A stretch of 43,405 nucleotides of DNA from a virus, in IMG/VR virus record IMGVR_UViG_3300037348_000076, positions 1-43,405 of that record; one strand, given 5' to 3'. The notes beneath the pieces are model-generated. The model was not told the DNA's origin, made no database searches, and saw nothing but the letters and a program-made list of their open reading frames with translations. Shown in pieces: positions 1 through 43,405 of the stretch (position 1 is the first letter of the stretch; every line of letters begins with the position of its first letter). The position numbers were made by a program, and so were the translations under genes.

Positions 1-126
1 GATGCTTTGCGCCTGATGCTTTGCGCCTGATGCTTTGCGCCTGATGCTTTGCGCCTGATGCTTTGCGCCTGATGCTTTGCGCCTGATGCTTTGCGCCTGA
101 TGCTTTGCGCCTGATGCTTTGCGCCT
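1..126. repeat. Left-end 14-bp tandem repeat array
   Basis: Nine perfect head-to-tail copies of GATGCTTTGCGCCT, followed at 127 by the short palindrome GCTTGGCAAGC. The same unit in the same orientation fills the right end (43274-43405), so the two ends belong to one array in a circular or terminally redundant molecule. No reading frame runs out of it. The true copy number cannot be read from a contig that ends inside the array. Confidence 0.95.
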
Positions 127-177
127 GCTTGGCAAGCAACAACGAAAAACTGCCCGGAAGGGCGGGAGGCTTATGGT

Positions 178-5081: not shown

Positions 5082-5112
5082 GCGACCCACCTGATATATA
5101 AGGGTGGGTCGC
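5082..5112 (+). promoter_or_regulatory. Leader hairpin of the replication operon
   Basis: GCGACCCACC (5082-5091) pairs perfectly with GGTGGGTCGC (5103-5112) around an AT-rich 11-base loop. It lies in the 5' leader between the promoter and the ATG at 5140. It could be an operator, an attenuator or an mRNA-stabilising 5' stem. The upstream GTG at 5104 falls inside the right arm, which is one reason to prefer ATG 5140. Confidence 0.75.
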
Positions 5113-5139
5113 CACTTAGCTTCAACAAAAAATAAGCGC

Positions 5140-5379
5140 ATGAAATTCCAGTACAAGATGACCCAACGCCCCTTCGGGATCGGATGCCAGCCCAAAGGGG
5201 CTGTCGATTGTATCAACTCAAACCGGGGACTAACCGGCTATCATTCGATAGCCGTGTACGACTTCCCCTTATCTGAGGAGCAGATTAAATCGTTTGAGCT
5301 TACGCCGGTTGAGCTTACGCCGGTTGAGCTTACGCGGGTTGAGACGTTTGCAAACTATATCGAAGCCCCAAAAAAGTAA
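5140..5379 (+). CDS. DarA-related-like small phage protein
   Basis: 79 codons from ATG 5140, after an A-rich leader (CAACAAAAAATAAGCGC). The pattern KYKMTQRPFGIGCQPKGAV ... GYHSIAVYDFPLSEEQIKSFEL resembles small proteins often annotated 'defense against restriction DarA-related' in phages and mobile elements. That label reflects distant similarity to P1 DarA and does not prove antirestriction activity. Three near-perfect 15-bp repeats (5296-5340) encode ELTPV-ELTPV-ELTRV, a site likely to vary in copy number. First gene of the replication operon. Confidence 0.6.
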   Translation: MKFQYKMTQRPFGIGCQPKGAVDCINSNRGLTGYHSIAVYDFPLSEEQIKSFELTPVELTPVELTRVETFANYIEAPKK

Positions 5380-27538: not shown

Positions 27539-28966
27539 TTATACTATTTTTAGGGTTCCGTTATCGTTCCATACGTCGCCAGTTTCCAGCCCGGTTACTG
27601 AGGTGGGCAGGCCGGAGAAGTTTATTGACGTTGCTTTGATTTTCCCATCTACGTGGAGTTTTTCAGTAGGTTCTTCTACGCCTATGCCGAAATTTCCGTT
27701 CGGAAGGACTACATACCTGAGTACTCCTCTGGCCCCAGAACTTGCTGGATTTGTGTAGTGCAAAAGCCTGCCATTCGAGAAGGAAGTCCAGATTGCTACG
27801 TCGTTTCCAACTCTTGATATTCCATGCGAGTTATTGATTCCGCCTAATGCAAAATTGCCAGTAATATAGACAGGTGCATTATCTACACGTAGTACATTGG
27901 TTAAATTTAAAATTTGCCTATCGTTAGGGGCACCTATGTATATACGTGCAAAAAGGCCACCGCCAGTAATGTATAAAGCGTTAACAGCAACATCTAGAAT
28001 ATCAGCAGCAACATATATACTTGCTGTTGGCCTTAGAAGGTCGTTGTTTCCGCTAAAGGTTAATTCGCCCTCAGCACTAACTTCCATTAGTGTTTTCCCC
28101 CCAGCATTTCGCCACTCCGCCAAGTTCGCGGTTTGCCCGGCTGCGCCCTGCACCCTCTGAACGACAACAGCGGCGTCATTGCCTTGAATGTGCTGGCGGG
28201 CAACAGGTAATGCAACACCTACCCCCACCCTACCAGCAAGGTATACAGCGTCGTCAGGGTTAGTGCCGTCTACGAATTTACCGCCGCCGCCGCCGCCGCC
28301 ATCTGCGCCGCGTGGAATAACAAAATTAAACGTCTTGTTTTGTGCGTCCCCTGTTTCGGTCACGCTGGCATTAGTTCCTGCTTCGCCTGTCGTTGTGGTT
28401 CCTACCGACACGGTTGCGGCAGCACCAGCTTCGCCGTCCGCGCCAGCAGCACCATCTGCGCCGCGTGGAATAACAAAATTAAACGTCTTGTTTTGTGCGT
28501 CCCCTGTTTCGGTCACGCTGGCATTAGTCCCCGCTTCGCCCGTCGTTGTGGTCCCGACCGCCACGGTTGCGGCAGCACCAGCTTCGCCGTCCGCGCCAGC
28601 AGCACCATCTGCGCCGCGCGGGATTACAAAATCGAACGTCTTGTTTTGTGCGTCCCCTGTTTCGGTCACGCTGGCATTAGTCCCCGCTTCGCCCGTCGTT
28701 GTGGCCCCGACCGCCACGATTGCGGCAGCACCAGCTTCGCCGTCCGCGCCAGCAGCACCATCTGCGCCGCGCGGGATTACAAAATCGAACGTTTTATTTT
28801 GTGCGGTCCCTGTTTCGGTCACGCTGGCATTAGTCCCCGCTTCGCCCGTCGTTGTGGCCCCGACCGCCACGGTTGCGGCAGCACCAGCTTCGCCGTCCGC
28901 GCCATTCGTTACCGAAATCGTCACAGTTTCAACTGTTTCCTCTACTAATATATTTACAGCACTCAT
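27539..28966 (-). CDS. Repeat-containing tail fibre (collagen-like segments)
   Basis: 475 codons. The N-terminal part holds four copies of a 51-residue repeat containing TTTTGEAGTNASVTETG, then FDFVIPRGADGAAGADGEAG. The GADGAAGADGEAGA parts are collagen-like Gly-X-Y stretches, and the rest matches phage receptor-binding-protein repeats. A Gly run follows (about 228-235), then a beta-rich region with VGVGVALPVARQHIQGNDA and a second FGIGVEEPTEKLHVDGKIKA motif like those of fibre ends with chaperone domains. Likely host-binding side fibre; overlaps the BppU-like gene by four bases. Confidence 0.82.
   Translation of the reverse strand: MSAVNILVEETVETVTISVTNGADGEAGAAATVAVGATTTGEAGTNASVTETGTAQNKTFDFVIPRGADGAAGADGEAGAAAIVAVGATTTGEAGTNASVTETGDAQNKTFDFVIPRGADGAAGADGEAGAAATVAVGTTTTGEAGTNASVTETGDAQNKTFNFVIPRGADGAAGADGEAGAAATVSVGTTTTGEAGTNASVTETGDAQNKTFNFVIPRGADGGGGGGGKFVDGTNPDDAVYLAGRVGVGVALPVARQHIQGNDAAVVVQRVQGAAGQTANLAEWRNAGGKTLMEVSAEGELTFSGNNDLLRPTASIYVAADILDVAVNALYITGGGLFARIYIGAPNDRQILNLTNVLRVDNAPVYITGNFALGGINNSHGISRVGNDVAIWTSFSNGRLLHYTNPASSGARGVLRYVVLPNGNFGIGVEEPTEKLHVDGKIKATSINFSGLPTSVTGLETGDVWNDNGTLKIV
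28304..28910 (-). repeat. Four 153-bp in-frame repeats in the fibre gene
   Basis: The string CTGTTTCGGT recurs at 28351, 28504, 28657 and 28810, exactly 153 bp apart, and the flanking sequence is 90% or more alike by eye. The repeats code for 51 residues each, so copy-number change keeps the frame. Expansion and contraction would lengthen or shorten the fibre. Confidence 0.9.
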
Positions 28967-35206: not shown

Positions 35207-37138
35207 CTATGACCAATGCTCACTCTCGCCGCGTCGTTTCTTTCGCGCTCGCGGTGGCGGTTTCTGCTCCTCCGCTTCGGGGGCACTAAGGTAAACCAAC
35301 TTCATGTTTGTTGGTTGTGGCGGCGTGTAGCCGATGTTCAATTCGCTCTCCCAGTCCTTCTCGGACCAGCGATCTACGCCGACCAGGTGGACGGCTGCGC
35401 GGGCGTAGACCCGGCAGTCAAAAGCCTCGTTGCGCGGACGACGTTTCTCCCACGTCCAGCGCATATACCCCTTCATGTCCTTGCGAGCGACGCGCCGCTC
35501 CGCACATAGCATATTGTAGTACTCCAGCGGGTAGCCGTCGGGGAAGTAGCAATACCCGGACGGAGCCTCGCCCTTGCCATCTAGGTCTAAATTCATCTTC
35601 GCGTAAACCTCCGACTTTATCAGGTCAACGCCGAGCGTCCACAGTCCAACTCCCGCGATCTTCTTACCCGACCCGCTCAGGTCCACCGGCTGACTGGCTC
35701 GTAGCAAGGTAGACTGCTTAGAGTTGTCCTGGCCCTTCACCGCCATCACCAGCGCAGAGCTGTGACGCCGACACCAGGCGTAAACCTCAACCGTGTTGTA
35801 GCCGGAATCCACCGCCATCTTACTCAAGCCCATCTCGCGGCCGTCGGGGCGCGTCCAGGTGCGGTACAGCAAGTTGGTGAGGTCATCCCACACTTTGGGT
35901 TGCGTCGTGTCACCTGGCAGCTCGTGGTAGTCGATGCTCCACGATCTCCCCATGAAGCCCCAGCCGACTATCTCTACCTCCAGTCTGTTTTTCTGCACGT
36001 CCACCCCGGCCGTCAAGATAGCCGCGCCATCCGGTATCTCGCCGCGTGCGTACCCGCCAGCCCGGTCGTAGAGCCTCTGAGGCTTAGGCGTTATGCTTTT
36101 GTTCTTTGTCGTCTCTCCGAACACGGTGTTGACGACCACCTTACGCTTCGCGTCGTCGTTCTCACGCTCCGCTACCTCAACCTGGTTAGCGATGTCGGCC
36201 CAACTCTTCCACCCCAAAGGGCTGTACAAGCTGCTAAGGTGGTAGCCGCGTTTGGTCTTGCTCGCGCCCGAGGGGTTGGTGACCGTCCATACCCCCTGCG
36301 CCAGCATCTTCGACTTAAAGCGTTCCTCGATTAGCTCCTCGCAACCCACACATTGATACTTCACGTCCTGAATGTCCTTCAAGTCCTTGTCGTAAACCAT
36401 GCGTGACCAAACGAGTTGCTGCATGAGGCCACAGTGAGGGCAGGGTACGTGGTAGTAGCGCATATCGGAAGCCTTGAAGTACTCAGCTATCAAGCTGGTG
36501 TCTTCGTCCGTAGGTGTTGATACATACGCGATCTTTTTAGAGCTTCCGAAAGTTGACGTTCGCGTCTTAGCCAGCTCGACAGGACTGCCTTCGTTGTCCA
36601 GGTCGTTCGGGTAGGCGTCCAGTTCGTCCATCAACAAAAACTTGATCGGAAGGCTACGCAGACTGGCCGCTGAGTTCGCGCCGCCGAAGACGATCACCCC
36701 ACCGGGGAAGCTTTTCTGCGTTATCGTGTTGCTGGAAGTTCTGGACTTGCCTATGCCGACCTTGGCCAGCAGGGTCGGCGACGCCTCAACCATAGGAGTG
36801 AAGCGCATCTTGGTATTTTGCTCGCTAGTACCCGAAGTGGGCATGATCGACAAGATGGGGCCGGGGTTCACGTCAATCACATACCCCATAACGTTGTAGA
36901 GCATCTCCGTGATCCCGATCTGCGCTCCCTTCATGAAAATCACCTCCCGGATAGGGCTGTAAGCGTCAAAACAATCCATGGGTTCCTGCAAATAGGGCGT
37001 TTTGGCTGTGCGCCACAGTCCCGGCTCCGCGCTGGCCTGCGAAGACAAGACGCGGTGTGTGTCGGCCCACTCAGTAGGCGTGAGGCGCGGCGGCGGGCGC
37101 AGTCCGTCAAAACAGCCCGCAAGCGTGAGGAATTGCAT
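35207..37138 (-). CDS. Terminase large subunit (GpA family)
   Basis: 643 codons. ATPase: MKGAQIGITEML (K70 to T77, the Walker A variant of GpA terminases), LLMDELDAYP (Walker B, D171 E172). A CPHC...CVGC zinc motif (about 234-270) separates the ATPase from the nuclease, which shows AGVDVQKNRLEVEIVGWG and KMAVDSGYNT acidic strands. Lambda gpA-type terminases usually act at cos sites, so cohesive-end packaging is likely though not proved. Confidence 0.95.
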   Translation of the reverse strand: MQFLTLAGCFDGLRPPPRLTPTEWADTHRVLSSQASAEPGLWRTAKTPYLQEPMDCFDAYSPIREVIFMKGAQIGITEMLYNVMGYVIDVNPGPILSIMPTSGTSEQNTKMRFTPMVEASPTLLAKVGIGKSRTSSNTITQKSFPGGVIVFGGANSAASLRSLPIKFLLMDELDAYPNDLDNEGSPVELAKTRTSTFGSSKKIAYVSTPTDEDTSLIAEYFKASDMRYYHVPCPHCGLMQQLVWSRMVYDKDLKDIQDVKYQCVGCEELIEERFKSKMLAQGVWTVTNPSGASKTKRGYHLSSLYSPLGWKSWADIANQVEVAERENDDAKRKVVVNTVFGETTKNKSITPKPQRLYDRAGGYARGEIPDGAAILTAGVDVQKNRLEVEIVGWGFMGRSWSIDYHELPGDTTQPKVWDDLTNLLYRTWTRPDGREMGLSKMAVDSGYNTVEVYAWCRRHSSALVMAVKGQDNSKQSTLLRASQPVDLSGSGKKIAGVGLWTLGVDLIKSEVYAKMNLDLDGKGEAPSGYCYFPDGYPLEYYNMLCAERRVARKDMKGYMRWTWEKRRPRNEAFDCRVYARAAVHLVGVDRWSEKDWESELNIGYTPPQPTNMKLVYLSAPEAEEQKPPPRARKKRRGESEHWS

Positions 37139-37278: not shown

Positions 37279-37968
37279 TTACTTGTTTGTGATGTCAGGT
37301 AAGCGGGTTAGTGCCGTCAGCGCGGCGTCGATCTCTTCAGTAATCAGCCTTATGACCTCCACGCGGTCAGTAGCAGCCATAACGCCATCCACCACGCGCA
37401 CCGGGACGCCTTCAAGTCTGTTCCTTATCATCTTACCGAAGGTGTACAGCTCAGTGTACACGTCCTCCCGGCGAACCAGGTCATTTTGCGACTGCGCCAG
37501 CTCGATCTCGGCCTTCAGCACCTTCGTGGTGTCTGCTGCAATCCGGACTTGAGTAGCCGTCATCGCGGACAAGCGTTCTCGCAACTCGCTCAGCACCTTG
37601 TCCGACGTTCCTGTCAGGTCAAGGCTCGCCCGCGAGGCCGGGAGGGGAGATGCAGCGGCGGCGGCTTCCTGGAGGGCGGTAATCTCATCCGCCGTCTTGC
37701 CTCCCTTCGGTGTCTTTACGTGCTTTGGATCAACGGCAAGATACCAGGTGTCGTTGACGCGCTTCTTGTGGAAGACGAAAGTTCCATCGCCTAGTTTGCG
37801 GTGGTCGCCGAGAGCTATGCGGCCACTCCGGGCACCCCGGCGCAGCGACCGCACCGGTATGCCTAGCGAAGCGGCCATGACCTTCGTACTCACCCACCCT
37901 GGCTGCGACTTTTTTGGCTTGTCAATCACTTTTTGAAACTTATGTTGAGCAGGGGCCTCTCGCCCCAA
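37279..37968 (-). CDS. Terminase small subunit-like protein
   Basis: 229 codons. The N-terminal region (STKVMAASLGIPVRSLRRGARSGRI, about 27-51) is a winged-helix or HTH DNA-binding element like Nu1. A long helical middle and C-terminus (LRERLSAMTATQVRIAADTTKVLKAEIE...MIRNRLEGVP) would mediate oligomerisation. The position before TerL is right. It should recognise the packaging site, for which the repeats at 38683-39124 are candidates. Confidence 0.8.
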   Translation of the reverse strand: MGREAPAQHKFQKVIDKPKKSQPGWVSTKVMAASLGIPVRSLRRGARSGRIALGDHRKLGDGTFVFHKKRVNDTWYLAVDPKHVKTPKGGKTADEITALQEAAAAASPLPASRASLDLTGTSDKVLSELRERLSAMTATQVRIAADTTKVLKAEIELAQSQNDLVRREDVYTELYTFGKMIRNRLEGVPVRVVDGVMAATDRVEVIRLITEEIDAALTALTRLPDITNK

Positions 37969-37987: not shown

Positions 37988-38617
37988 TTATCTGAAACCG
38001 AAAGCCGGACCCAACGTGGAAGCTCTACCAAGCAGGTAGCCGAGGCGGTTAGTGAAGTCGTTGTCAATTTGTTGGCGCAAGATAGCAAGTAAACCCGGAT
38101 CGTCCAACTTTTGAGCTACGGTGGTGGTCATGATCTGGGTCATCTTGCCCTTGCCCGTCCCCACGCCGTGTGGCCCGAACTTGAAACCTTGACCTCGTTT
38201 GTACCGTCCGCGAGCGAACACTCCGAGGGTGGAGCCGCCGCCACCGGTCGGGACGCGCTGGAGAAATGCTCGCTTAATCATTTTCCTGCCTCCCTTGCCC
38301 GGCGATATACTCACCTTAGTGCCAGCTTTTAGCTGCGTAGGGCGAAAGTTTCGCGCCCGCAAAGGGGCAGACTTTGAACCGAGGGAAGACTGGAGCTTGC
38401 CCGGACCAGCTTTCGTGACCTTGAGTTGAGCTTTTACAACCGTCGCGCTCAGCCTAAGCTTGCTGCGGGTGTACTGTTGCGAAGGTTTAACCAGCTTAGC
38501 AGTAGTGTGATTGAGTGCCCGGTAGGTTGCCTGCTCCAGCGCGGGTCCAGACATATCAATATACGCCTTCGCTAAGTCTCGCTTTAGTGTCGTCAGGTCC
38601 AATTCGATCTCGATCAT
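37988..38617 (-). CDS. Minor tail protein Z-like protein
   Basis: 209 codons from ATG 38617; the longer frame to 38719 runs through 10-bp repeats and has no leader. ATYRALNHTTAKLVKPSQQYTRSKLRLSATVVKAQLKV, then GTKVSISPGKGGRKMIKRAFLQRVPTGGGGSTLGVFARGRY, fits the minor tail protein Z family (PF06763 type). Its place upstream of TerS, far from the other tail genes, is unusual. First gene of the leftward operon. Confidence 0.7.
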   Translation of the reverse strand: MIEIELDLTTLKRDLAKAYIDMSGPALEQATYRALNHTTAKLVKPSQQYTRSKLRLSATVVKAQLKVTKAGPGKLQSSLGSKSAPLRARNFRPTQLKAGTKVSISPGKGGRKMIKRAFLQRVPTGGGGSTLGVFARGRYKRGQGFKFGPHGVGTGKGKMTQIMTTTVAQKLDDPGLLAILRQQIDNDFTNRLGYLLGRASTLGPAFGFR

Positions 38618-38682
38618 GCCGTAAAGGTAGTTGAAACGGCCGATTCCGCCAAAAGTCGTAGGAGTATAGGCAAACCGACAGC

Positions 38683-38717
38683 CGCACTGTTCCGCACTGT
38701 TCCGCACTGTTCCGCAC
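38683..38717. repeat. 10-bp tandem repeats CGCACTGTTC
   Basis: Three full copies (38683-38712) and a half copy. The unit contains the CTGTTC arm of the larger elements that follow. A 10-bp period places each site on the same face of the helix, as expected for binding of an oligomeric protein such as TerS or an initiator. Confidence 0.85.
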
Positions 38718-39124
38718 AACTAACTGACTGTCAGCACTTTAATTTTCAAAGCGGAACAGTGCTCTTTTTTGCTGTTCCGCGTAACTCATTGACTGTAAGC
38801 ACTTTAATTTTCAAAGTGGAACAGTAAATAAGAGAATGTTCCACTTAACTCCTTGAGTGTCAGCACTTTACGTCAAAAAGGTCTTTTTTAAGAACTCCAA
38901 ACTTTGGGGGGTCTGTTTTAGAGGGTCATTCCGGGTTTACCCCGTAAGCTTATAAGCCCTTTACCCCCTTTTCTCTATATTACTTTATGTCTTTATATAG
39001 AGTTACTGTTCCTAAGAGAGATAATACCCTGATAGTCAAAGAGTTAGGTGGAACATTCTCCAAATTTACTGTTCCCGCTACATCTTGTAACTAGCTGACA
39101 GTCAACAAGTTACAAGGGAACAGT
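38708..39124. repeat. Family of ACTGTTCC...GGAACAGT elements
   Basis: Element A (38708-38760) has arms ACTGTTCCGC/GCGGAACAGT; B (38772-38825) has CTGTTCCGC/GTGGAACAG; E (39068-39124) has ACTGTTCCC/GGGAACAGT. Half-elements C (38836-38871) and D (39028-39055, inverted) keep one arm. Each contains a core of the type AACTnnnTGACTGTCAGCAC or a close variant. Arms can pair across about 35-40 bases, so each whole element could form a hairpin. Confidence 0.85.
38973..39002. repeat. AT-rich inverted repeat
   Basis: CTCTATAT (38973-38980) and ATATAGAG (38995-39002) are perfect inverted copies around an AT-rich 14-base spacer, in the most AT-rich stretch of the control region. Together with flanking repeats this resembles a DNA unwinding element, but that is inference. 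Confidence 0.6.
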
Positions 39125-39210
39125 AAAAGAAGTTGACTGTTCTACTGTTCTTTTTGCCCCATTTAGTTCGCTAGTTTAAAACTTTATTGCTTAAAAATCC
39201 TTCCTTTCAC

Positions 39211-39417
39211 ATGACCTATCGCAACTATACCATCTCTCGGGGAGTGCCCGAGCTACTCCCGGACGGTCGCCGCATCGGGCACTTCGACATTGTGGACCCC
39301 AACGGAGTGTTGATCGACGTGGCCGAGTACCCGGTCGGCAACAGCTTCGCCCGCGCCCTGGCCTTGCTTGACGCTCGCCGCCGGGTTGACCGGGCGGTGG
39401 CTGCTAGTGGTGGCTGA
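39211..39417 (+). CDS. Small early protein, unknown
   Basis: 68 codons from ATG 39211 (an in-frame TTG 24 bases upstream is less likely). MTYRNYTISRGVPELLPDGRRIGHFDIVDPNGVLIDVAEYPVGNSFARALALLDARRRVDR suggests a small alpha/beta fold with a final helix. The GTTCG of the early cassette (TTTAGTTCGCTAG) occurs about 40 bases upstream, perhaps a degenerate early promoter. First rightward gene after the control region. Family not recognised. Confidence 0.65.
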   Translation: MTYRNYTISRGVPELLPDGRRIGHFDIVDPNGVLIDVAEYPVGNSFARALALLDARRRVDRAVAASGG

Positions 39418-39423
39418 TCGCCT

Positions 39424-39712
39424 CCGGGGCCGGGTTGCGGTGCCGGTGATGGCGGCGGTGGCGGTGCGGGCGGTGGCGGTGCGGTCGGTGGTGGCGGGCT
39501 GGTGATGGCGGTGCGGGCGGGCGGTGGTGGTGGTGGGTTGGTGGTGGTGGGTTGGTGATGGCGGTGCGGGCGGTGGCGGTGCGGTCGGTGGTGGCGGGCT
39601 GGTGATGGCGGTGCGGGCGGTGGCGGTGCGGTCGGTGGTGGGTTGGTGGTGGTGGGTTGGTGATGGCGGTGCGGGCGGTGGTGACGGGTTGGTGACGGGT
39701 TGGTGATGGCCC
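39424..39712. repeat. G-rich minisatellite
   Basis: About 290 bp made almost only of GGCGGT, GCGGTC, GGTGGT and TGATGG units on the + strand; a stretch of about 54 bp beginning GGCGGTGCGGGCGGTGGCGG recurs three times. Open frames exist on both strands but encode only Gly/Val/Trp-rich or Pro/His/Thr-rich low-complexity peptides. Strong strand asymmetry and runs of GG make G-quadruplexes or slipped structures possible. It begins directly after a stop codon. Confidence 0.85.
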
Positions 39713-39719
39713 CCCTCGG

Positions 39720-40062
39720 GTTGATTGCGGGGCGATTCCTATTGTAGACTGGATGCCCGCGCGGGTCAGCCCTTTGAAAATCAAAAACTAGCGAAGTTTC
39801 GGGGATCTCTGACCCGCATTCCTGAAACGGCGCGAAGGACCCCACCTAATAGCCTGATAATCAAACACTTATGTATATTAAAAGTCTTAAAGTCTTGCTT
39901 TAGCACCCGGATTGTCTCAAAACGTAAATGTTTGACGTTCAGCACTTTATACATAGGGCGTTTTATTTTACTCATCCAATGATTTCTAAACTTAACTACG
40001 CAGAGACCCATAAGTAGGCCGGATCGTGCTACCTTATATATATAGGTCTCAAAAACTAAAGG
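39720..40062. other. AT-rich spacer before the early promoter
   Basis: About 340 bp without a convincing gene. A 150-codon minus-strand frame crosses it but runs into the early promoter and coding sequence and is hydrophobic low-quality. Two more copies of the TGAnnnTCA-type core seen in the control region occur here (39848-39871 and 39926-39949). Short A/T-rich sequence with TATATATA at 40036 follows. Confidence 0.6.
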
Positions 40063-40178
40063 GAAAAGAAAGTAAAAATAAAGTATAAAAAACTTGCAAG
40101 TATGGGAAATTAGTTCGTACCTTGCACCTAGAAAGAGGGAAACAATTCCGTTTACCTCAAAACTTAGAACAAAATGAC
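40063..40178 (+). repeat. 116-bp early promoter-leader duplication, copy 1
   Basis: Identical base for base to 41054-41169. It spans the A-rich upstream part, the TTG/TACCTTG promoter, the whole leader and the first five coding bases. Identity ends exactly inside the start of two unrelated genes. Confidence 0.95.
40094..40124 (+). promoter_or_regulatory. Early promoter, cassette 3
   Basis: TTG (40094-40096), a 21-bp spacer containing AAGTATGGGAAATTAGTTCG, and TACCTTG (40118-40124). The leader ends TCAAAACTTAGAACAAA before ATG 40174. Confidence 0.85.
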
Positions 40179-40965
40179 TACTTCCACTACCACTAACACT
40201 ACCACTACTAATAACCATACCAACAGTACTCACTTCGCTGAATACTGGAAAGCCTACGACGCGGCTTTTGGGGTATTTAAGTCGGCAGGCTTCACCGACA
40301 ACAGCGACGACGTAGCCGTCGACGCGCTAGTTGCTGCCGGAGCGTCCATTTTGAAGTTGTCAACAGTGTCGGCCGACAATGTTGAGGCAGCCTGGACGGC
40401 GGCCGCTAAAGCGGCCAAATGTAGGGTTAACCCCAAAACAGCCGCTAAGGAATACCGCGCGGCCGTCAAGGCTGAAAAGGTAGCAGCGGCCGCTTTGGCG
40501 GTTGCCACTGATCGGTTCTACGGCGCGTACACGCAGGACAAACAAGATTGCTACACCACATACAAGGTGGCGGCCGCGTGTGCTGCCTCGGCGCGTCTAA
40601 AAGTTGTGGCGGCAAAGGTGGCGGTAGACACTCAAAGGAAGGGAGAGACATTAACCCGGAAAAGCGCGGAGGGCCGCACTTTCCGGACCTCTTTGATCGG
40701 ATTAGAAATCCTTGGATGGAACTTCGACGCGCAATATATCGCGCACTTTAAGACACTTTACGGGCCTCATGCCTTCCCTTGCGGGCAGGGCATGGCTGAT
40801 GCGGCCGCGCGGTTTGAAAATTCAGACGTTTGTATCCGTTGCCAAGAAGGTGAGTTCTCTTATGCCATTGACGGCGGAGAATACCAACCTTCCGGAGACG
40901 ATACGGCTACTTTAGGAGATCTTAACCTTCTTTTAAGGTTGGAAGATCTTACTGAGGTCTTTTAG
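40174..40965 (+). CDS. Early protein with Thr/Asn start and Ala-rich helical middle
   Basis: 263 codons. Residues 1-18 are a Thr/Asn/Ser string; residues about 65-150 are Ala/Lys-rich and helical (AAWTAAAKAAKCRVNPKTAAKEYRAAV...), recalling the Ala-rich proteins at the left end. The C-terminal 100 residues are ordinary globular sequence with CIRCQEGEFSYAIDGGEY. The Cys pair may bind metal. Driven by early cassette 3. Unknown function; largest protein of the early region. Confidence 0.75.
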   Translation: MTTSTTTNTTTTNNHTNSTHFAEYWKAYDAAFGVFKSAGFTDNSDDVAVDALVAAGASILKLSTVSADNVEAAWTAAAKAAKCRVNPKTAAKEYRAAVKAEKVAAAALAVATDRFYGAYTQDKQDCYTTYKVAAACAASARLKVVAAKVAVDTQRKGETLTRKSAEGRTFRTSLIGLEILGWNFDAQYIAHFKTLYGPHAFPCGQGMADAAARFENSDVCIRCQEGEFSYAIDGGEYQPSGDDTATLGDLNLLLRLEDLTEVF

Positions 40966-43260: not shown

Positions 43261-43405
43261 GACGTTTGCGCCTGATGCTTTGCGCCTGATGCTTTGCGCC
43301 TGATGCTTTGCGCCTGATGCTTTGCGCCTGATGCTTTGCGCCTGATGCTTTGCGCCTGATGCTTTGCGCCTGATGCTTTGCGCCTGATGCTTTGCGCCTG
43401 ATGCT
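43261..43405. repeat. Right-end 14-bp tandem repeat array
   Basis: A degenerate first unit (GACGTTTGCGCCT, 43261-43273), nine perfect GATGCTTTGCGCCT units (43274-43399) and six bases of another. The longest exact overlap between the two ends of the window is 118 bp. If that overlap is an assembly artefact of a circle, the array is ten perfect units; if not, it is longer and unresolved. Confidence 0.95.

Follow-up and report, generated by a model that had tools for sequence, protein, structure and literature searches.

Some phages separate early and late transcription at divergent switch regions, as in the lambda immunity region and the P2-type switch. These switches lie between divergent arms and carry repeated symmetric operator-like sites, with promoters at the edges. 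A divergent phage control region is in itself an already known kind of locus. We analyzed a candidate for such a region at 38618–39210 of an IMG/VR virus record of 43.4 kb (43,405 nt), hereafter the window, meaning the whole stretch of DNA under analysis. It resembles the lambda and P2-type switches in lying between divergent arms and in its repeated symmetric operator-like sites, and it has a candidate promoter at its leftward edge. It differs from them in that a repressor pair or an integrase was not recognized beside it, and in that its core site is common to unrelated phages and host genomes rather than phage-specific. We consider it reasonably probable that early and late transcription of a tailed phage of Bacteroidota (probably Cytophagales) is controlled from this divergent region, with a widely shared dimeric factor acting on a 25-bp palindrome (P) and a lineage-specific factor on GGAACA/TGTTCC.

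We examined the organization of the genome around the region. An identical 14-bp tandem array is present at both ends of the window (1–127 and 43265–43405, a 118-bp terminal repeat), indicating that the map is effectively circular; the assembly closes within these end arrays. The major leftward ORFs extend from 38617 to approximately 14.8 kb and include those of TerS, TerL, portal, capsid-protease, and tail collar protein. The major rightward ORFs extend from 39211, via the end array, to 14.4 kb and include those of lysozyme, a DUF2800 nuclease, SSB, PolA, VapE, and SNF2. The leftward arm is that of the structural genes, and the rightward arm is that of the early and replication genes. Few ORFs of 100 aa or more run against these directions (one in a G-rich array and two within the structural arm), and they look spurious. 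The region, bounded by the start codons (ATG) of the minus-strand gpZ-like ORF (38617) and a plus-strand ORF (39211), is the sole divergent boundary of this two-arm genome. The replication genes (SSB, PolA, VapE, and SNF2) are distant from it, at 7.5–14.4 kb. The phage VapE is closest to VapE of phages infecting Croceibacter, Elizabethkingia, and Bacteroides. These affinities and the distribution of P described below point to a Bacteroidota host.

The features of the locus are summarized in Table 1. A search with the gpZ-like protein matched only two contigs in the viral contig collection and none in the annotated phages, and no family match was found for the first rightward ORF. A G-rich noncoding array (GGTGGCGGTGCGG-type, 39433–39710) with strong GC skew is located just 3' of that ORF; a different GC-rich repeat replaces it in the close relative L002. 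Elsewhere, four tandem 153-bp copies (96% match) were observed at 28299–28904 within the structural arm, and the ORF at 5104–5379 carries a DarA_C domain (defence against restriction A C-terminal, PF18789) and possibly encodes an anti-restriction protein.

Table 1 Positions of genes, repeats, and candidate sites in and around the divergent region of the window.
Feature	Position	Strand	Remarks
Terminase large subunit (TerL), gpA family	35207–37138	−	PF20454/PF05876, phrog_15
Terminase small subunit (TerS), GTG start	37279–37929	−	phrog_57, E=3.5e-13; 33% identity to L037 TerS
cos-like site GGGGCGAGAGGCCCC	37953–37967	−	Gap between gpZ-like stop and TerS GTG start; contig-end pile-up and joined L039 ends
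gpZ/neck1-like gene, first of leftward structural arm	37988–38617	−	phrog_27, E=1.7e-14; 34% identity to L037 601–1212
Whole intergenic region between divergent arms	38618–39210		Proposed early/late control region
Candidate late promoter TTTG-N20-TACCTTTA	38622–38653	−	4 nt before gpZ-like ATG (38617)
10-bp tandem array CCGCACTGTT, 3.6 copies, 100% match	38682–38717	+	TGTTCC half-sites at 38688, 38698, 38708
P1, degenerate copy, CAACTAACTGACTGTCAGCACTTTA	38717–38741	+	
Q inverted pair between P1 and P2	38753–38778		GGAACA 38753–38758, TGTTCC 38773–38778
P2, TAACTCATTGACTGTAAGCACTTTA	38782–38806	+	
Q inverted pair between P2 and P3	38818–38842		GGAACA 38818–38823, TGTTCC 38837–38842; 10-nt perfect arms AAGTGGAACA/TGTTCCACTT
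P3, TAACTCCTTGAGTGTCAGCACTTTA	38846–38870	+	
AT-rich inverted repeat CTCTATAT...ATATAGAG	38973–39002		Between left and right P clusters
TGTTCC half-site next to P4	39007–39012	+	
P4, TAACTCTTTGACTATCAGGGTATTA	39022–39046	−	
Q inverted pair between P4 and P5	39050–39075		GGAACA 39050–39055, TGTTCC 39070–39075
P5, TAACTTGTTGACTGTCAGCTAGTTA	39088–39112	−	0 mismatches to P pattern
TGTTCC half-site next to P5	39117–39122	−	Followed by degenerate CTGTTCT repeats at 39136–39151
First ORF of rightward arm	39211–39417	+	
Two outlying P copies, kept in L002	39847–39871, 39925–39949		Within small minus-strand ORF 39781–39975

A first-pass annotation had described the region as densely repeated, with 10-bp tandem repeats and an AT-rich inverted repeat, and our counts agree on all three points. 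Eleven TGTTCC/GGAACA half-sites are present in 594 bp versus 14 in the remaining 42,811 bp of the window, and 1000 dinucleotide shuffles gave a mean of 0.35 and a maximum of 3 for the region. The 10-bp array is found at 38682–38717 with 3.6 copies, and the AT-rich inverted repeat at 38973–39002. The array has five copies in the relative L001 and four in L002, compared to three tandem copies in the window; as the copy number varies among close relatives, it is not critical. The same annotation had listed three hairpin-capable elements and two half elements. The arms of these elements (ACTGTTCC/GGAACAGT) are real, but the arm-flanked units number five (plus strand at 38707, 38772, and 38836; minus strand ending at 39055 and 39122), and all five share a core that had been overlooked.

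This common core, designated P, is the 25-bp quasi-palindrome TAANTNNYTGANNNTCARNNANTTA. Five copies were observed in the region compared to a mean of 0.002 in shuffled sequences, and the reversed-sequence control gave zero copies in the window. The arms are located 3–4 bp ahead of each P and mostly 9–12 bp behind it, giving the layout P-[GGAACA..TGTTCC]-P, with adjacent P copies spaced 64–66 bp apart. The site of P1 in L002 reads TAACTCATTGACTGTCAGCACTTTA. The minus-strand ORF at 39781–39975, in which the outlying copies lie, encodes 64 aa (MSKIKRPMYKVLNVKHLRFE...) and is open in L002 too, with many amino-acid changes. An Rfam scan of the region gave no hit at the gathering score and two sub-threshold matches, both to unrelated families. 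Scans of the region for the sigma-70 and terminator consensus were not above shuffles, and a DNA similarity search of the annotated phage collection with 38500–40200 yielded zero matches.

We compared the region with those of relatives. Alignment with L001 and L002 showed a mean column identity of 96%. Two far more diverged relatives, L036 and L037, are 98.7% identical to each other and were counted as one lineage; their identity to the window is 53% for TerL, 34% for the gpZ-like protein, and 33% for TerS. Upstream of the gpZ-like gene, this lineage carries an exact P at 221, a copy with 1 mismatch at 422, and another with 3 mismatches at 519. Eight GTTCC/GGAAC sites accompany them within 600 bp, where shuffled sequences averaged 0.89 and reached at most 4. 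A AAGTGGAAC-N13-GTTCCACTT pair at 460–490 of L037 resembles the window Q pair at 38818–38842, and the sequence between the P sites has an AT-rich middle, as in the window. The placement between divergent operons proposed by the earlier annotation is thus supported: no other divergent boundary exists in the genome, and the layout of the region is kept in a deeply diverged relative.

Bacteroidota promoters have the form TTG/TTTG and TAnnTTTG. The sequence TTTG-N20-TACCTTTA, located before the gpZ-like gene, resembles this form and is a likely late promoter, because the position of its −7 element before the gpZ-like ATG matches that in L037. A perfect Bacteroidota −7 element (TATATTTG) is located 4 nt before the homologous ATG of L037, so a −7 element (TAnnTTTR) lies 4 nt ahead of the gpZ-like ATG in both phages. 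The earlier view that no standard promoter is visible is therefore qualified by this candidate, whose count is at chance (1 in the window versus 1.5 in shuffles) but whose −7 position is kept in L037. The distance from P1 to the candidate −7 element is 100 bp in the window, 120 bp in L001, and 110 bp in L002, compared to the 50–67 bp common elsewhere; in L037, 58 bp separate the −7 element from the closest P centre. On the rightward side, the region yielded no convincing promoter.

We searched for P in other viruses using a strict pattern with 18 fixed bases. At least 120 stretches of the viral contig collection contained it. All 86 mapped copies among the matches listed were outside ORFs of at least 80 aa, against a coding fraction of 78%, and 21 of 25 copies of a reversed-half control pattern were coding. 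Promoter-like sequences (TTTGG-N17–21-TAnnTTT) pointing away from P were found 34 times downstream and 10 times upstream, with a peak 30–49 bp from the P centre; these counts are partly redundant, as related contigs were included. In many phage contigs, P is located between tandem genes ahead of promoters, often beginning right after a stop codon, and several copies per genome are common. The typical position of the P centre, 30–49 bp upstream of TTTG, resembles that of class I activator sites (CRP-type position). P differs from CRP/FNR sites in having 3 bp between TTGA and TCAA and extra outer TAA/TTA contacts. In three contigs (L012, L013, and L017), we also observed several intergenic pairs of P per contig, 50 bp apart, with a GC-rich 25-bp inverted-repeat-like spacer.

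A close counterpart among described phages is the gp87/gp88 gap of the human gut phage p-crAssphage (Carjivirus communis; BK010471). Its two genome arms diverge at this gap alone, which carries an exact P at 95982–96006, upstream of RepL (gp88) and 62 bp ahead of the TAnnTTT element TATATTTA. It differs from the window region in having a single P, in that GTTCC repeats were not seen, and in that the next gene is RepL; p-crAssphage also encodes its own RNA polymerase. A copy of P with 2 mismatches (28561–28585) lies upstream of the second RepL gene (gp43), so that P or P-like sites precede both RepL genes (loci L248 and L242). An exact P is likewise located in a divergent gap of the phage cr8_1. 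The matches in ProJPt-Bp1 and BT638P6 were weak (no P and one 2-mismatch P, respectively) and were excluded as support, as was the match in cr118_1, which is inside a gene. A Hymenobacter plasmid match was partial (87%) and was not counted, and Vibrio and most other partial matches look like chance.

In bacterial genome contigs, the composite TGTTCC+P pattern was not found, and the window form of P occurred at four loci. Since two of these were in one Microscillaceae MAG (Prado074, G001; loci L021 and L022), we counted P genome-wide. P matched in 12 of the 198 Bacteroidota genomes, with 1–2 copies in all but one. The MAG (6.8 Mb) contains 1050 strict and 2321 relaxed copies, and three other Cytophagales contain tens of copies. 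The reversed P control gave zero copies in the P-rich genomes. The copies in the MAG are mostly intergenic, without orientation preference; neither a link to TAnnTTTG nor conserved flanks were detected there, with no identity beyond 25 bp. Near 970, 3540, 4445, and 7020 of L022, an almost identical insert-bearing, split P is repeated (TAACTCATTGA CTGTGTCTGCCTCTGGC TGATAATCAAGCACTTA, whole or in part), as though an element were inserting into P or spreading along with it. The first-pass annotation had suggested a phage-specific control system. The GTTCC arms indeed seem confined to the lineage of the window phage, but the core P is common to many other phages and some Cytophagales genomes.

The variable half-site positions of P do not covary for pairing in either the MAG or the viral set, apart from one weak pair in each, and P therefore behaves as the binding site of a dimer, not as a hairpin. 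The data fit a putative site read by a protein dimer better than a hairpin or a copied element. It is improbable that P represents a mobile repeat of the REP or MITE kind, acquired from a host in which it had multiplied. The 2321 mostly intergenic, randomly oriented copies in one Microscillaceae genome and the pairs approximately 50 bp apart in three contigs (L012, L013, and L017) recall the REP/BIME elements of enterobacteria, which are short intergenic palindromes, sometimes paired, with thousands per genome in one host. However, identity among the copies stops at 25 bp, with no extended shared sequence or consistent pairing covariation, and the variable positions are independent, unlike those of copied elements. 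P also differs from REP/BIME in its unconserved flanks and non-covarying half-sites, and it is found in many unrelated phages, upstream of promoters. Hairpins serving as terminators or RNA structures are a very improbable explanation; the frequent start of P directly after a stop codon in tandem phage genes would suit them, but consistent covariation, a U-tract after P, and an Rfam family match are all absent, and the five copies here are at the 5' ends of both genes. Bacteroidetes microviruses have been reported to use dif-like sites (PMC3091885), and P is likewise intergenic and palindromic. A Xer/dif-type recombination site is nevertheless extremely improbable: the 11-bp arms of P are separated by 3 bp, whereas dif (28 bp) has a longer spacer, and most of the 198 Bacteroidota genomes lack strict P while one has 1050 copies, when dif is expected about once per chromosome.

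We consider it possible, at a little short of an even chance, that P is an undescribed cis-element broadly shared by phages of Bacteroidota and possibly of other hosts. It would be a strictly intergenic dimer site, often 30–50 bp upstream of promoters, present in the divergent gaps of the window phage and p-crAssphage and multiplied in some Cytophagales. No description of P was found in the literature searched by motif string and topic, with subscription papers and preprints outside the coverage. On this absence of evidence only, within the same coverage, the spread of P and its occurrence in p-crAssphage appear undescribed. One half-site string was present in PMC11080532, solely within a qPCR primer, and this match was rejected.

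The region had also been proposed to contain the packaging site, as it lies upstream of TerS-TerL. We used a TerL profile search to collect 80 relatives. Sixty-eight of them had a locus reaching a true contig end; in 28, this end preceded the TerL match by 590–720 bp, and 14 of the 28 contigs started with GGT. Many separate metagenome contigs (L066–L111) share a similar start, GGT..., a short distance upstream of TerS; these assembly breaks reveal natural cos ends. When the right and left ends of the L039 contig (43,762 bp) were placed side by side (ATTACGGGGAGGGT|AAGCCCCG, right end first), the joined sequence aligned with the uninterrupted 1255–1280 of L037 (GGGCTGAGAAGCCCC) and with 37953–37967 of the window. 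The pile-up of contig ends and the joined L039 ends together place the cos-like site there, approximately 650 bp from the repeat region. The contigs of the window, L001, L002, L036, and L037 run unbroken through this site, so it is by homology that we infer the cos of the window phage at 37953–37967. In the relative L004, the TerL frame is split into two overlapping ORFs (665–2595), possibly owing to a frameshift or an assembly error.

These results disagree with a cos at 38618–39210: the ends of the relatives align elsewhere, and although the region is upstream of TerS-TerL, the gpZ/neck-like gene (phrog_27; 37988–38617) and the cos-like site intervene between it and terS. It is highly improbable that the region is a packaging region, that is, a cos with terminase-binding repeats. 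Its nearness to TerS-TerL of a gpA-type terminase, with repeats upstream, is reminiscent of the lambda-type cos region (cosQ-cosN-cosB), but here the cos-like site is beyond the gpZ-like gene, most cos-bearing relatives lack P (it is absent from L038–L041 and the more distant TerL relatives tested), and P is present in phages of unrelated type. A replication origin, in which an initiator or a host factor would bind P and GTTCC and unwinding would occur at the AT-rich inverted repeat, is unlikely, and it may coexist with a control role. Iterated sites cluster around an AT-rich element between the P clusters (38973–39002) and likewise in L037, and in p-crAssphage, an exact P precedes one RepL gene and a 2-mismatch copy the second. 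Against an origin, the array-masked GC skew reaches its lowest value at 9.3 kb and not at the region (a weak test, because genes are strand-biased), the replication genes are far off at 7.5–14.4 kb, and P occurs in many phage contigs between tandem genes before promoters, with several copies per genome.

The reading of the region as a transcription control region is favored by its place at the sole divergent boundary and by the same elements ahead of the same gene in L036/L037 despite divergence. The −7 element shared with L037, the intergenic position of P upstream of promoters in other viral contigs, its presence in the divergent gaps of p-crAssphage and cr8_1, and its dimer-like half-sites also support this reading. 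Against it, the leftward promoter match does not exceed chance by count, a convincing rightward promoter was not recognized, the 100 bp between P1 and the −7 element is longer than usual, P in the P-rich host genome shows neither orientation preference nor a TAnnTTTG link, and no DNA-binding regulator was recognized among the scanned phage proteins.

Protein binding, regulation, and the choice of promoter at the region are what we infer from these sequence features. In the proposed model, leftward transcripts would start at a promoter immediately ahead of the gpZ-like gene, cover gpZ, and continue through cos on the circular DNA to TerS-TerL and the structural arm. Transcripts leaving the region rightward would serve the early/replication arm. 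The five P copies would be sites for a dimeric DNA-binding protein not limited to the window phage, either a host factor or a widely shared regulator. The GGAACA/TGTTCC half-sites between the P copies would bind a second, lineage-specific protein, probably phage-encoded, and the two proteins together would set which arm is transcribed.

The pile-up of contig ends used here is a cheap means of locating cos in uncultured phages. Transcription control in Bacteroidota phages, including crAss-like phages, is poorly understood, and the recurring 25-bp site could be used as bait in cell extracts for a direct search for the controlling factor. If P is indeed such a broadly shared element, it would point to a conserved host or phage regulator on which many phages have converged.
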